A stretch of DNA of 64,000 bases from Gemmatimonadota bacterium (GTDB lineage: Bacteria > Gemmatimonadota > Gemmatimonadetes > Gemmatimonadales > Gemmatimonadaceae). Shown piece by piece: positions 40,696 to 48,033 of the stretch (the first letter of the stretch is position 1; each line of letters starts with the position of its first letter). The stretch is from positions 1 through 64,000 of the forward strand of contig DAHUXM010000027.1 of NCBI GenBank assembly GCA_027307165.1, given 5' to 3'. Position numbers and translations under genes: made by a program. The notes under the pieces were generated by a model. That model had not been told where the DNA came from and did no database searches. It was given only the letters and a program-made list of their open reading frames with translations.

Positions 40696-41661
40696 TCACA
40701 AAGTGGTAACAATTCGAGCAGGATTTGGTCTCTTCATTATCGGCCCCCAGAGATCGCCGACCGTCTCGAGACGGGCTGCCAGGGTGCGGATCGTGAAGTC
40801 TCTGGGATCCAGGCCGGGTGTCAGCTCGTCCCAGCGCAGCGGCGTGGATACCGATGCCTCCGGACGAGCCCGTACGCCATAGGCGGCCGCGATGGTCTTG
40901 CCACGGGCGTTCTGGCCAAAGTCCACGTAGATCTTCGAGCTGCCACGCTTGCTTATGGGCCTCACTACCGTAGCGGACTGCGGATGGGCACCGGCAACCG
41001 CCTCGGCGATCAAACGGGGGACGCGCTCCGCTACCGCGTCCGTGGACTTGGGCGGAAGCGGGATGACGATGTGGATTCCGGTGGCGCCGGATGTCTTGAC
41101 TCCCGCATGAAGACCGAGATGGTCGAGCGCTTCCTTCACCCATAGCGCGACTTCGATGACACGCGCGAATGGAGACTTCGGACCGGGATCCAGGTCGATG
41201 ACGGTGAAGTCGGGGTCGCTCAGCGATCCCACCCGCACGTTCCACGGATTGCATTCGAAGGCGCCGATCTGCGTGCAGTAGAGAGTCGTGCCAAGCGTGC
41301 CGCCGATGATGCGTTCCTGGATTTCTCCGGCCGGCGACTTTATCGACTCCACGCGGACGACGTCGGGCGGATTGGGCGGAGCCTTTTGCTGGAAGAAGAA
41401 CTTGCCGGCGACGCCGTCGGGGAAACGCTTGAGTGACAGTGGTCGATCCGCCAGCACCGTACGCAGGTACGGCCACACGCTGGTGTAATAGCGCATGACT
41501 TCGCCCTTGGTGATTCCGGGCTTCGGGAAGAAGACCTTCGCAAGGTTCGACACCTTCAATGAACTGTCGCGCCCCAGTTGAATCACTCCGTCGCCACTCT
41601 CGGCTTCGACGGCCTGAAGTTGATCGGTGATCTTTCGGAGCGCTGCAGCGGACGGCGTCAT
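40696..41661 (-). CDS. ligD: LigD polymerase (non-homologous end-joining primase-polymerase) domain protein
   Basis: The 321-residue archaeo-eukaryotic primase-type polymerase has LSLKRFPDGVAG, the catalytic FTVIDLDPG (Asp146 and Asp148), LHAGVKTSGATGIHI and KIYVDFGQNARGKTI. In full LigD this fills gaps at double-strand breaks. Here it is a separate gene with the phosphoesterase 10 bases upstream; no ATP-ligase domain and no Ku are in the window. Confidence 0.93.
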   Translation of the reverse strand: MTPSAAALRKITDQLQAVEAESGDGVIQLGRDSSLKVSNLAKVFFPKPGITKGEVMRYYTSVWPYLRTVLADRPLSLKRFPDGVAGKFFFQQKAPPNPPDVVRVESIKSPAGEIQERIIGGTLGTTLYCTQIGAFECNPWNVRVGSLSDPDFTVIDLDPGPKSPFARVIEVALWVKEALDHLGLHAGVKTSGATGIHIVIPLPPKSTDAVAERVPRLIAEAVAGAHPQSATVVRPISKRGSSKIYVDFGQNARGKTIAAAYGVRARPEASVSTPLRWDELTPGLDPRDFTIRTLAARLETVGDLWGPIMKRPNPARIVTTL

Positions 41662-41671
41662 GCAGCTGCGA

Positions 41672-42472
41672 TCAGGGTGATGAATGCCAGACGCGCGTGC
41701 CGTCAGCTATCTCGTCCATGGTGCGGTTTGTCGTCACCGACTTCACATACTTCGTGGTGAGTATCGATTCACTTTCGGGATGCGCATCTTCGTCGCGGTG
41801 CTTGATGAGAAGCCATGATGGCTTGGATGCGCTTCTGCCGAAGCCGCGCGTGCGCACGAGTGCGTAGGATCCCTTGATGCGTTTTCCGTGAAAGTTGATC
41901 TTGAGCTCGCCGCGCTCGTACTGATCGTGGGCCGCCGAGTTCATGTCGTCGTCAGGTGGATTCTCGATCTCGTAGGTGCCGTTGTCCCACAGCATCACAG
42001 TGCCGCCGCCATACTCGCCGGACGGAATCGTTCCCTCGAAGCTGTTGTACTCGACGGGGTGATCCTCGACCTGCATTGCGAGACGCTTCACGCTGGGATC
42101 GGCGGATGGTCCTTTGGGCACGGCCCAACTCTTCATCACTCCGTCGATCTCGAGTCGAAGGTCGTAATGAAGTTGAGTGGCGGCATGCTTCTGAATCACG
42201 AACTGGAGCTTCTTCGTGGCTGCGGAACGTGAGGGCTTTCGCGCGCGCGTAGATGCGCCCGAAGGCTCCATCGTTTTCTCGAAGTCGCGTTTGCGCTGGT
42301 ATTCCGCAAGCTGCTCCGCGGCGCTCGGCGCTTTCTTCGCCGCGGTCCTGCTCGTCGATTTGCTTGCAGTTTTGCTCGCAGTCTTGCTTGCAGTTTTGCT
42401 TGCAGTCTTGCTTGCAGTTTTGCTCGCGATCTTGCTTGCGGATTTGCGCCCGGTCTTCTTGCGAACGGCCAT
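41672..42472 (-). CDS. LigD 3'-phosphoesterase domain protein with Lys/Ala-rich N-terminal tail
   Basis: The 266-residue protein begins with a repetitive, basic N-terminus (seven ASKT units after AVRKKTGRKSASKI), similar to histone H1-like DNA-binding tails. The phosphoesterase core follows from about 70: KHAATQLHYDLRLEIDGVMK, QVEDHPVEYNSFEGTIPSGE, a GGGTVMLWD strand and WLLIKHRDEDA. It trims 3' ends during end joining. The tail may hold the enzyme on DNA. It is probably an operon with the polymerase. Confidence 0.9.
   Translation of the reverse strand: MAVRKKTGRKSASKIASKTASKTASKTASKTASKTASKSTSRTAAKKAPSAAEQLAEYQRKRDFEKTMEPSGASTRARKPSRSAATKKLQFVIQKHAATQLHYDLRLEIDGVMKSWAVPKGPSADPSVKRLAMQVEDHPVEYNSFEGTIPSGEYGGGTVMLWDNGTYEIENPPDDDMNSAAHDQYERGELKINFHGKRIKGSYALVRTRGFGRSASKPSWLLIKHRDEDAHPESESILTTKYVKSVTTNRTMDEIADGTRVWHSSP
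42358..42432 (-). repeat. 12-bp tandem repeats coding SKTA units
   Basis: Units such as TTGCTTGCAGTT repeat about six times with small changes, coding Ala-Ser-Lys-Thr repeats in the phosphoesterase tail. Copy number is a multiple of three bases, so variation keeps the frame. Confidence 0.85.
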
Positions 42473-44423: not shown

Positions 44424-44450
44424 TTGCTTTCGGTATTTGTTCGGTATAAG
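44424..44450 (+). promoter_or_regulatory. Weak promoter candidate for the sigma/LexA-like operon
   Basis: TTGCTT (44424-44429) and TATAAG (44445-44450) have a short 15-base spacer. TTCGGTAT-type direct repeats overlap them. It lies 30 bases before the ATG at 44480 and after the divergent YhaM start. The spacing is poor, so this is tentative. Confidence 0.3.
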
Positions 44451-44479
44451 CTTTTCTCATCTACCACGCCGAGTGCGCC

Positions 44480-45097
44480 ATGCCGAAAACAGATGTCTGG
44501 TTCGATCCAAGCCGGTACGCGACAGTCGCGGAGCGGATAGCGCTGTTCTACAAGAGTCATCCGGGCGGGCGGATACTGACGGAGCTGGTGAACCGTGATA
44601 CGGAGTCGGTGACGTTCAAGGCGCTGGTATTTCGGGGCGAGGGGGATACCGTGCCGGCTGCGACGGGATGGGCGACGGAGCGTGAGGGGGACGGCGACAT
44701 CAATACGGTGGCGTGTCTGGAGAACACGGAGACGTCGGCGATCGGGCGCGCGCTGGCGAATCTCGGGTACACGGCGGCGCGCGAGCGTCCCAGTGTGGAG
44801 GAGATGGAGAAGGCGGGGCGAGCGCGACGAAACCGCGGAATGGCGGCCAGAAGAGCTGATGCTGTCGCGATCATGGCGGAGCAATCGCCGGAGTACCGGA
44901 GCGCCTCCTCCGACCTGCTCGGCCTGCTCGTCGAGGCTGAGCAGGCCGGGCTGCCGAGTGACAGGGCTCAGCGTCTCCGCGACAGGCTGGAGCGCGGGCC
45001 GGCGATTCTTCCGTCCCGGATGGTTGAGCTGGAGCGGTCGCTGAGGAACTGGCTTTTCAGAAAGGAGAATGTCACCGGGTCTCGTCTATCCCCATGA
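44480..45097 (+). CDS. ERF/single-strand-annealing-like protein (tentative)
   Basis: The 205-residue protein has VTFKALVFRGEG, an acidic central region and ENTETSAIGRALANLGYTAA (about residues 81-100), the 'ETSAIGRALa.lGy' motif seen in phage ERF/Rad52-like single-strand annealing proteins. The C-terminal half is alpha-helical and Arg-rich. It lies 37 bases before the sigma gene. A recombination role fits the LexA-like neighbour, but the match is one motif, so function is uncertain. Confidence 0.5.
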   Translation: MPKTDVWFDPSRYATVAERIALFYKSHPGGRILTELVNRDTESVTFKALVFRGEGDTVPAATGWATEREGDGDINTVACLENTETSAIGRALANLGYTAARERPSVEEMEKAGRARRNRGMAARRADAVAIMAEQSPEYRSASSDLLGLLVEAEQAGLPSDRAQRLRDRLERGPAILPSRMVELERSLRNWLFRKENVTGSRLSP

Positions 45098-45134: not shown

Positions 45135-45839
45135 GTGGAGGGTTGGCGGTTTGGGGAGCGGAGCGACATCGAGCTGCTGACCGGGATCCGGCGGAATGAG
45201 CTGCGAGCGCTACGCGAGTTCGTCGTCCGGTACGAGCCTGTGCTTCTGGACCAGGCTCGGCGGCTCTCCGTAAGCCCGAGCGATCGGGGGACGATCGTAA
45301 CCGGATTCCTGGACGACATCCTGGTCAAGCTCGCCAATACGAATGCCGAGTCACCGCGGTCGCTGACTGCATTCGTGATCACGTCGTTCCGCAACTGCGT
45401 GATCGATCTGCATCGTGAGGCGACGGTGCGTGAGCGGCATGCGCGATCGGAGGAGGAGGCGATCGGCACGGAGTACGTGGTGCGTGCCACGTGCTCCGAG
45501 TTCATGCTGCGCGCGGCGCGGGGAAATGGTGACGGCGAAGAGTCGTCATCGGCTGCGGCCACCAGACTGGTTCATGTGCTCCTGGATGGATGCTCATCGG
45601 ACGAGCGACAGCTGCTCGTATGGAGCGCGCACCGCGTTCCGTTGCGTGAGTGCGCCGCGTGGCTCGGAATCGGTTACGACGCGGCCAAGCAGAAATTGTC
45701 GCGGCTGCGTGCGCGGCTCGTACGCGACAGCATCACGCACCTGTCCTCCCTTGCCGAACCGGATCGCGGAGAGCTCTGGCATCTGCTGCGTCGTGCCGGC
45801 ATACGAATCAATGATGGCGGAATGAGGTCCACAGCATGA
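45135..45839 (+). CDS. ECF-like sigma factor coupled to a LexA-like autoprotease
   Basis: The 234-residue protein begins at GTG (AAAGGGGGCGGAC upstream). Region 2 is around RSLTAFVITSFRNCVIDLHR; region 4 is PLRECAAWLGIGYDAAKQKL followed by SRLRARLV, an HTH of the ECF type. Length and separate regions fit an ECF sigma factor with a longer linker between regions 2 and 4. Its TGA overlaps the ATG of the next gene (ATGA), a common arrangement for sigma/anti-sigma pairs. No canonical anti-sigma gene follows; instead the LexA-like gene does. Confidence 0.7.
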   Translation: MEGWRFGERSDIELLTGIRRNELRALREFVVRYEPVLLDQARRLSVSPSDRGTIVTGFLDDILVKLANTNAESPRSLTAFVITSFRNCVIDLHREATVRERHARSEEEAIGTEYVVRATCSEFMLRAARGNGDGEESSSAAATRLVHVLLDGCSSDERQLLVWSAHRVPLRECAAWLGIGYDAAKQKLSRLRARLVRDSITHLSSLAEPDRGELWHLLRRAGIRINDGGMRSTA

Positions 45840-46576
45840 ACGGAAGGAATCAGAAGCATTCATATCGCCAGGATGTCGGTGGTAGCGACGATACCAATTC
45901 ATTGATCCGATTCCTGGGCGATGCATTGGATGCGAGCGGTGATTGCAGCGCGTACGAGGACGATCGGTTTCTCGCGTGGCTCGAGCGTGAAGTGCATGGA
46001 CGGAGTTCTGATGCGGATCGGCAGTCGAGCACGCGTGCGGCGCAACAGATCGCGAAACGTGCTCAGGCGCGCATTCGTGCGTCGCGCGTAGCTGGAGCGC
46101 TGCCGGCGCGTTCGTTCATAGTTCGTCCTGCCGCGCTGGTGGGGAACTTCGATCACGTCGCACGAGCAGCTTCGGAGTCCGGTTGCGCGCCGTGGGTGGA
46201 ATCGCTCGCGGTCGCGGCTGGTACGGGACGTGAGATCTGGGACGAGCCGTGCGAGCAGTGGGTGGAGCTGCCAACGGGATTTGCGGGTGCGGGCAATCTC
46301 GCGCTCACTGTTACGGGTGACAGCATGACGCCCTGTCTCGAGAGTGGTGACGTGATTCTCGTGAACACACGCAAGGCTGTGACGCGTGACTGCATGGTCG
46401 TCGCGCGACGCGCGGATAATGGTTACGTGGTGAAGCACGTGACGCGATGCGGGCGGGGAGCGCTCGAGCTGTCGTCGTTCAACAGCGCGTACGAGCCGTT
46501 TGTGATCGACCGCGTGCCGGGGGCTGTGGTGGGAGTGGTGATCGCGAAGCTGGTTCGTGACGGGGAGGCGTCGTGA
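45836..46576 (+). CDS. LexA/UmuD-type self-cleaving protein, putative sigma regulator
   Basis: The 246-residue protein carries an S24 domain at its C-terminus: TGDSMTPCLESGDVILV with Ser163 and GYVVKHVTR with Lys200. The 37-residue Ser-Lys spacing equals that of LexA. VAAG at 126-129 places an Ala128-Gly129 bond 35 residues before the serine, the same distance as the LexA cleavage site. The N-terminal 120 residues are not the LexA winged-helix; they are acidic then Arg-rich helices (AAQQIAKRAQARIRASRV). Self-cleavage on RecA-ssDNA would split this domain from the protease, which suggests a damage-released regulator of the sigma factor with which it is coupled. This last step is inference. Confidence 0.8.
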   Translation: MNGRNQKHSYRQDVGGSDDTNSLIRFLGDALDASGDCSAYEDDRFLAWLEREVHGRSSDADRQSSTRAAQQIAKRAQARIRASRVAGALPARSFIVRPAALVGNFDHVARAASESGCAPWVESLAVAAGTGREIWDEPCEQWVELPTGFAGAGNLALTVTGDSMTPCLESGDVILVNTRKAVTRDCMVVARRADNGYVVKHVTRCGRGALELSSFNSAYEPFVIDRVPGAVVGVVIAKLVRDGEAS

Positions 46577-46638
46577 GGGCGCTGGCGGACAGTCCACAGG
46601 CAAGTGCTTCACACACGCTTCTTACGATCGGAGGGACA

Positions 46639-48033
46639 ATGCAGCAACATGATGTATCCACTCAGGACAGGATCACGAACGTCGTGGCTACGGCGATTGC
46701 GATAGCCGGTGCGATCGTTGCCTCGCCGTCGGCCGTCGAGAAGTTACCGGCGACGGCGGTGGCTGTTCTCAAGACTGCAGCGACGCTGGGACATACGACG
46801 CAGCCGTTGATCGTGACACTGATCGGGATTGTTGTAGCAGCGGTGACGCATCCTCCGGCGTGGCTGAGCGGGCTCAAGCCCCTGCGCCGATCCATACCCC
46901 GATCTTCCGAACCCCATGCAACATTTATCAATAGATTTGATACAGTCACCGAAGGAACGCGACCGCCACACCTGGACGATTCACGAATGACTGATACAGC
47001 TCCGCCAGCCGGCAAACAACCACAGCGCGGACCATTTGCGTGGGTGCACGCCTTCACGGGTTTCTATCCGGCGATGGCCGAAGAATTTTCGCATCTGGAT
47101 CCGGTGACGCGGTTCCTGTACGCGTCGCGCAGCGTCATCCTGGTGATCTCCGCACAGGCTGCTTTGATCGCCGGACTGCTTGCCGTGATCGCCGGCGGGT
47201 TCGAGCCCATTCCGTTCGTGCTGGTGCTGGGTGGCTACGTGGTGCTCCACGCGATCAGCAACCTGTCCAACGATTATTTCGGATATCGAAGAGGACATGA
47301 CACTGCGGACTCGCCGCGCCGACGCTACACTCTGCATCCGATTGCAAGCGGAGCAGTCACACCGCGGCTGCTGATCACCGGGATCGTCATTCTCTCCGTC
47401 ATCGCAGCGGCGATTGCGGTGTACTTCGTCACGTTGCGCGGACGAAATGCACTCGGACTGGTAATTGCAGGCGCACTACTGCTCTACGCATACGACGCCG
47501 CCCCGAAAGCATTGAAGGAGCTCGGGCTCGGTGAGGCTGCTGCGTTCGTCGTTTGGGGACCACTGATGATCGGTGGCGGCTACTACGTCATCACCGGGCA
47601 GTGGTCGGCGGCCGCGTTTCTCGCATCCGTACCATACGGGCTCGGCGTCGCGTCGATTCTCATTGGAAAGCACATAGATCAGCGCGGCTTCGACTCGTCG
47701 CAGGAGCAGCGGACGCTGCCGGTCCTGCTTGGCGAACGTCGCGCGCGATTGTTGAATCAATCCGTGCTGATCGCCATGTACGTTGTGATCGTAATCGCGG
47801 TCATCACGCGCGCGCTGACGCCATTCGCACTGCTGGTGGTGTTCGCGGCCCCGCGCGCGATACGCGCGCTCCGCGTGATGTCGCGACCCGCGCCGGCAGA
47901 AGCGCCGGCTGGATATGTTGGATGGCCGCTATGGTATCATCGGATGTGCCTGGTGCACAATCGCGCGTTCGGCTGGCTGTACATCGCAGGCCTCGGAGCA
48001 GGCGCGCTGTTCGCAACCTTTCTCGCGCGCTAA
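46639..48033 (+). CDS. menA: MenA-type prenyltransferase with N-terminal holin-like membrane extension
   Basis: The core from 46987 (MTDTAPPAGKQPQRGPFAWV) is a UbiA-superfamily prenyltransferase with the two Asp-rich motifs NLSNDYFGYRRGHDTAD and GKHIDQRGFDSSQEQRTLPV and eight or so membrane helices. It matches 1,4-dihydroxy-2-naphthoate prenyltransferase (menaquinone synthesis). The frame continues upstream without a stop to ATG 46639, which has a strong GGAGGGAC site. The extra 116 residues contain two hydrophobic segments (VVATAIAIAGAIVASPSAV and TQPLIVTLIGIVVAAV). Either a fusion protein is made, or 46639 and 46987 are both used. It follows the LexA-like gene. Confidence 0.85.
   Translation: MQQHDVSTQDRITNVVATAIAIAGAIVASPSAVEKLPATAVAVLKTAATLGHTTQPLIVTLIGIVVAAVTHPPAWLSGLKPLRRSIPRSSEPHATFINRFDTVTEGTRPPHLDDSRMTDTAPPAGKQPQRGPFAWVHAFTGFYPAMAEEFSHLDPVTRFLYASRSVILVISAQAALIAGLLAVIAGGFEPIPFVLVLGGYVVLHAISNLSNDYFGYRRGHDTADSPRRRYTLHPIASGAVTPRLLITGIVILSVIAAAIAVYFVTLRGRNALGLVIAGALLLYAYDAAPKALKELGLGEAAAFVVWGPLMIGGGYYVITGQWSAAAFLASVPYGLGVASILIGKHIDQRGFDSSQEQRTLPVLLGERRARLLNQSVLIAMYVVIVIAVITRALTPFALLVVFAAPRAIRALRVMSRPAPAEAPAGYVGWPLWYHRMCLVHNRAFGWLYIAGLGAGALFATFLAR

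Follow-up and report, generated by a model that had tools for sequence, protein, structure and literature searches.

An operon in which a gene for an extracytoplasmic function (ECF)-type sigma factor is coupled to a gene for a LexA-like self-cleaving protein without a recognised DNA-binding domain, apparently under a LexA/SOS box, was characterized in the phylum Gemmatimonadota. It was studied in a stretch of 64,000 nucleotides (contig DAHUXM010000027.1, assembly GCA_027307165.1; hereafter the window) from a 3.7 Mb genome of this phylum of soil bacteria. The operon starts with a phage-type gene (the first gene), followed by the sigma gene and the gene of the peptidase family S24 (the S24 gene). 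Our best explanation, to which we give a probability of roughly one half, is that the operon would constitute a LexA-controlled sigma regulon for RHS-repeat and membrane-protein cassettes, in which the S24 protein would be a brake on sigma that RecA releases by triggering cleavage.

Conservation of the Gene Pair

Relatives were searched in 395 genomes of the phylum, which yielded 23 close S24 relatives with their loci, 22 of them with upstream DNA long enough to judge gene order. The sigma gene was located immediately 5' of the S24 gene in all 22, and in most of them the S24 gene had an ATG start at which it overlapped the end of the sigma gene by 4, 11 or 14 bp. In the window, the sigma stop and the S24 start share the sequence ATGA, a 4-bp overlap that had already been described in the first-pass annotation of this DNA; two tests that it had suggested, whether the two genes are neighbours in relatives and whether the Ala-Gly, Ser and Lys residues of the second product are invariant, came out in its favour (22/22 loci and 23/23 proteins, respectively). 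Frameshifts or cut ends were observed in a few metagenome copies of the pair (L037, L038, L045, L050).

Characteristics of the S24 Protein

The Pfam family Peptidase_S24 covered residues 125-236 of the S24 protein, with 57.2 bits against a cut-off of 23.3, and was the sole credible Pfam match both there and in the 11 diverse members scanned (11/11). The distances from A128-G129 to S163 (35 residues) and from S163 to K200 (37 residues) are those claimed previously; in Escherichia coli LexA the equivalent positions, with the same spacing, are A84-G85, S119 and K156. Invariant positions among the relatives were A127-A128-G129, R132, W142, G161, S163-M164, P166 and K200, the pattern expected from selection for a working autoprotease. 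AlphaFold gave a fair S24 domain whose nearest folds in the PDB were LexA, lambda CI and UmuD, and the closest matches of the domain in a profile search were likewise LexA, UmuD and lambda CI. The UmuD model of NCBIfam scored 25.2 bits, below its curated cut-off of 110; by curated cut-offs, the protein is neither LexA nor UmuD.

The first ~120 residues gave no credible Pfam match and are the least conserved, widely variable part of the protein. None of the 11 members matched a helix-turn-helix or other DNA-binding family, and the LexA winged helix (PF01726) was not found in the S24 protein, the PF01726 matches of the genome mapping elsewhere; at the level of family matches, this agrees with the earlier statement that the region is not a winged helix.

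Characteristics of the Sigma Factor

The sigma protein of the window alone showed no Pfam match, and TIGR02937 was matched with E = 1.9e-7, under its curated cut-off. A profile of 11 members matched the ECF sigma factor CnrH over both sigma domains (E = 4.8e-8) as well as other ECF structures, and Sigma70_r2 or Sigma70_r4 was found in 4-5 of these members. Judged by these profiles, the protein is a divergent but real ECF-type sigma factor with regions 2 and 4 and no region 3. A C-terminal extension after region 4 is common to all members, and in most of them the linker between the sigma domains (residues about 118-128) bears the motif (C)SE-x3-RAS. A second short sigma-like gene was observed in L053 (7638-8132), directly after the S24 gene; it is followed by a gene for a secreted protein and then by an RHS gene.

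LexA/SOS Box

Upstream of the first gene lies the box TTCGGTATTTGTTCGGTATA (TTCGG-N6-TTCGG), placed inside a sigma-70-like promoter, TTGCTT-N17-TAAGCT, at 44424-44452 (TTGCTTTCGGTATTTGTTCGGTATAAGCT); this promoter was recognised by eye and is not called by the strict consensus scan. The box was kept in 16/16 loci with the first gene before sigma, and in 19 of 21 loci it was the sole coding-strand match at ≤2 mismatches. In loci that lack the first gene, the box stands directly before the sigma gene (L047, close to a contig end, L049 and L055), in L036 in opposite orientation. Locus L044 is truncated by the end of its contig, and in the same genome the box and the first gene lie at the end of another contig.

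The occurrence of boxes and elements throughout the genomes was assessed by pattern searches. The genome of the window (G000) contains further exact copies before an imuA-imuB-dnaE2 cassette and a SplB-like radical-SAM gene, and copies with one mismatch before ruvB and a PAS-domain gene (names taken by reading the translations); the reversed-pattern control gave 0. Two canonical LexA genes are present, on contig 12 (L091) and contig 37 (L092), of which only the former has TTCGG-N6-TTCGG within 300 bases 5', being preceded by TTCGGGCATTCTTCGGATAA. Since the box also precedes lexA, imuA-imuB-dnaE2, the SplB-like gene and ruvB, it was regarded as a LexA/SOS box. Exact copies occurred in 100 of the 395 genomes, many of them without the pair (reversed control, 1), and among 30 box loci read, most of those with a recognisable gene preceded imuA-type genes. 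Recognition of the box by the S24 protein was considered and dropped, because many genomes without the pair carry it before imuA-type genes.

A direct-repeat box, GTTC-N7-GTTC, is known from Caulobacter (PMC9578287), and the box of Gemmatimonadota resembles it; a LexA motif for Gemmatimonadota was not found in the open-licence literature. Control of the sigma operon by LexA is well supported and, as read from the DNA, highly probable. The damage-triggered sigma switch of the first-pass annotation gains from this a link to damage, which is real because a LexA/SOS box precedes the operon, and has to be modified in that control would be at least transcriptional, by way of canonical LexA.

Regulon Element and Apparent Targets

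A second conserved element, TGTCACCGGGTCTCGTCT (consensus YGTMAC-N6-GYGTCT), precedes the sigma gene; it has lineage-specific forms with an invariant 6-bp gap, and matching copies lie 3' of the S24 gene in eight loci. At ≤2 mismatches it was found nine times in G000 and seven times in the sister genome G022, about two being expected per genome and the reversed control giving one in each, whereas G190 and G300, of the same genus and without the pair, had one and none. Two sites lie 89 and 101 bp before RHS genes (assigned on the basis of TIGR03696 and PF05593) at unlinked loci, and in the G022 operon a further site precedes its RHS gene. RHS genes are also located close 3' of the pair in seven loci.

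In genus g11, the form TGTAACCNTCCGGCGTCT is repeated at unlinked loci, where five sites show 0-1 mismatches against an expectation of about 0.02 per genome. All five precede a gene for a small membrane protein of 36-62 residues, near-identical proteins being encoded at unlinked loci, and in G313 one such gene is followed by one for a secreted protein and then by a long RHS-like gene. In another set of four genomes, every exact site was at the sigma locus itself. The shared element, like the pair conservation, the catalytic geometry and the LexA box, is a direct observation; the link that it suggests between the pair and the RHS and membrane-protein cassettes appears fairly well supported and probable. 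The first-pass annotation described the pair correctly, and its interpretation is supported in part; it overlooked these apparent targets as well as the gene that opens the operon.

Near-matches to the element were also observed before an ordinary ECF sigma gene (G000:C16:43207, L231, and G022:C1:677721, L228), where TTAAC-N16-CGTC reads as a standard ECF promoter.

Proposed Mechanism and Alternative Explanations

DNA damage would give rise to RecA filaments, LexA would be cleaved and the operon transcribed. The sigma factor would then activate a small set of promoters marked by YGTMAC-N6-GYGTCT, those of its own gene, of giant secreted RHS-repeat (polymorphic-toxin-type) genes and of small membrane-protein genes. 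The S24 protein would most likely bind the sigma factor through its variable N-terminal region, restraining leaky sigma in undamaged cells, until RecA filaments triggered cleavage at A128-G129 and the sigma factor was released, so that LexA and the S24 protein would be two locks answering to one signal. As RecA filaments would cleave both at once, the main effect of the brake would be to keep leaky sigma silent as long as there is no damage, or to raise the threshold. A translationally coupled partner that keeps an intact autocleavage site and lacks a recognised DNA-binding domain is most simply read as a cleavable brake on sigma, and we regard this as an even chance; the more specific proposal of a RecA-cleaved LexA-like anti-sigma factor in a damage-triggered cascade, with LexA and the S24 protein locking an RHS-toxin and membrane-protein regulon, is put forward tentatively, at slightly below even.

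Several observations weigh against this explanation. Binding of the S24 protein to sigma and RecA-triggered cleavage are steps that we infer, as are the direction of control and the action of sigma at the element. The S24 protein matched no anti-sigma family, and its N-terminal ~120 residues, probably helical as modelled by AlphaFold on four sequences, were predicted unreliably, with a predicted local distance difference test score of about 30-57. A gap of 6 bp falls short of the usual -35/-10 spacing, and a protein other than sigma may therefore read the element. Most of the two-mismatch matches do not precede RHS genes, the sites without such a gene being unexplained or due to chance, and RHS genes without the element exist. 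The pair is, moreover, patchily distributed in the phylum.

The S24 protein could instead act like UmuD, cleavage activating it and the processed form helping the annealing protein probably encoded by the first gene, the sigma factor or RNA polymerase. UmuD is likewise an S24 protein that has no DNA-binding domain and is encoded in a LexA-controlled operon, UmuD' structures appear in the results of the profile and fold searches, and the first gene of the operon is of a DNA-recombination type; however, the NCBIfam score is far below its cut-off, and a long variable region of ~127 residues precedes the cleavage site, compared with the arm of 24 in UmuD. The partner also differs: no umuC-type Y-family polymerase stands beside the S24 gene, its neighbours being the phage-type gene, sigma and variable downstream genes, and the constant companion is sigma (22/22) and not the annealing gene, which is missing from three loci. 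We thus consider a UmuD-like role unlikely. Slightly less credence is given to a DNA-binding repressor, in which an unrecognised N-terminal domain would read YGTMAC-N6-GYGTCT. The invariant 6-bp gap, which would be unusual in a promoter read by sigma, would suit such a reader, S24 domains dimerise in known repressors, and the element is palindromic in some loci (ACACCGCGGTGT in L041), but it is non-palindromic in other lineages, including that of the window, no DNA-binding family was matched by the 11 members scanned, and conservation is lowest in the N-terminal region while the element is conserved.

A domesticated-phage relic, with the S24 protein as a decaying repressor and with sigma, endolysin and RHS genes associated without common regulatory logic, would account for the phage-type first gene, the endolysin and holin-like genes of G022, the patchy distribution and the decayed downstream part of the operon in the window. 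It is nevertheless judged very unlikely: no phage structural genes were seen in the flanks, and the catalytic residues, the box and the element are kept across genera, which points to selection. A phage origin of the pair itself was rejected, as 86 viral loci gave 0 matches to the sigma profile, no virus contig with sigma was found, and the viral S24 matches carry ordinary DNA-binding N-termini; the only pair in the phage and plasmid collections was on a 1.04-Mb replicon of Gemmatirosa kalamazoonensis, itself one of the loci of the phylum (G079); in this species, too, sigma is preceded by a LexA box.

Other Features of the Locus

The features of the operon are detailed in Table 1.

Table 1. 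Features of the sigma/S24 operon in the window, with positions and basis of assignment.
Feature	Positions	Strand	Basis
LexA/SOS box (TTCGG-N6-TTCGG)	44429..44448	+	Conservation, shared copies
Phage-type gene (phrog_11717), first in operon	44480..45097	+	Phage-family match, model, 16 loci
Regulon element (YGTMAC-N6-GYGTCT), before sigma	45070..45087	+	Conservation, unlinked copies
ECF-type sigma gene, 234 aa, GTG start, conserved C-terminal extension	45135..45839	+	Open reading frame, profiles
S24 (LexA-like) autoprotease gene, 246 aa, no recognised DNA-binding domain	45836..46576	+	Open reading frame, Pfam, conservation
Putative cleavage site, A128-G129 codons	46217..46222	+	Invariant in 23/23
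Catalytic S163 codon	46322..46324	+	Invariant in 23/23
Catalytic K200 codon	46433..46435	+	Invariant in 23/23
Holin-like membrane-protein remnant, in frame into UbiA-family gene	46639..46890	+	Weak holin similarity, best E = 0.005

In 16 loci sigma follows the first gene immediately, an order also seen in G047 and G206 at contig ends; the first gene is missing in L036, L049 and L055. Its family is annotated as mgM101-like in one phage, and its structure model has an alpha-beta3-alpha core, for which a fold search against the PDB gave no significant match. On the basis of this annotation and the plausible core fold, it is probably an Mgm101-like DNA annealing protein. In other families of the class, distant relatives of the gene occur with no sigma gene next to them. 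LigD polymerase and LigD 3'-phosphoesterase domains were observed near the operon on two separate neighbouring genes (40696-42472), and in G006 (L125) and G346 (L130), too, a distant relative of the first gene has a LigD polymerase gene in its vicinity.

Downstream of the S24 gene, G022 carries a CHAP endolysin (phrog_9589, E = 3.8e-13), an intact, weakly holin-like protein and an RHS gene, of which only the holin-like remnant remains in the window; there, a UbiA-family prenyltransferase frame fused to this remnant (46573-48033) marks a deletion relative to G022. A secreted family with a KPVVVFRF-like motif precedes RHS genes, 3' of the S24 gene in L036, L037, L040, L041 and L053, and also in L281. 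At the sites scanned, strict sigma-70 and terminator models called no promoter or terminator; hairpins were recognised by eye 3' of the S24 gene in several loci.

Comparison with Known Systems and Significance

The S24 protein shares with LexA the S24 domain, the Ala-Gly site and the Ser/Lys dyad at equal spacing, and differs from it in the lack of the PF01726 winged helix, in standing always beside a sigma gene and in coexisting with two canonical LexA genes. In PrtR/PrtN and AlpR/AlpA of Pseudomonas, as in LexA-controlled colicin operons, damage induces toxin and lysis genes; PrtR and AlpR are LexA-like proteases that restrain an activator, and they bind DNA. Here, on the other hand, the activator would be a sigma factor, no DNA-binding domain is known in the protease, and RHS-repeat cassettes at several loci are the apparent targets. 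With ECF sigma factors regulated by soluble anti-sigma factors, the operon has in common a two-domain sigma factor translationally coupled to a downstream putative regulator, with an element before sigma and other genes; it is set apart by the nature of that regulator, an S24 autoprotease.

Cases involving LexA, S24 proteins or DNA damage are not named in a 2022 review of ECF mechanisms of non-canonical type (PMC8999054), and no description of an S24/ECF sigma pair was found in the open-licence literature, in line with the first-pass annotation. The pair may work as a switch of the LexA type that is linked to an ECF sigma factor. If this is true, the SOS response would be coupled to a dedicated sigma factor in bacteria, and the S24 autoprotease module would act by controlling a protein, the sigma factor, instead of by binding DNA. 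It would also provide a trigger for giant RHS-repeat proteins in a phylum of soil bacteria and a new tie between DNA damage and toxin-like weapons, and Gemmatimonadota would offer an SOS box of their own and a sigma switch driven by DNA damage.
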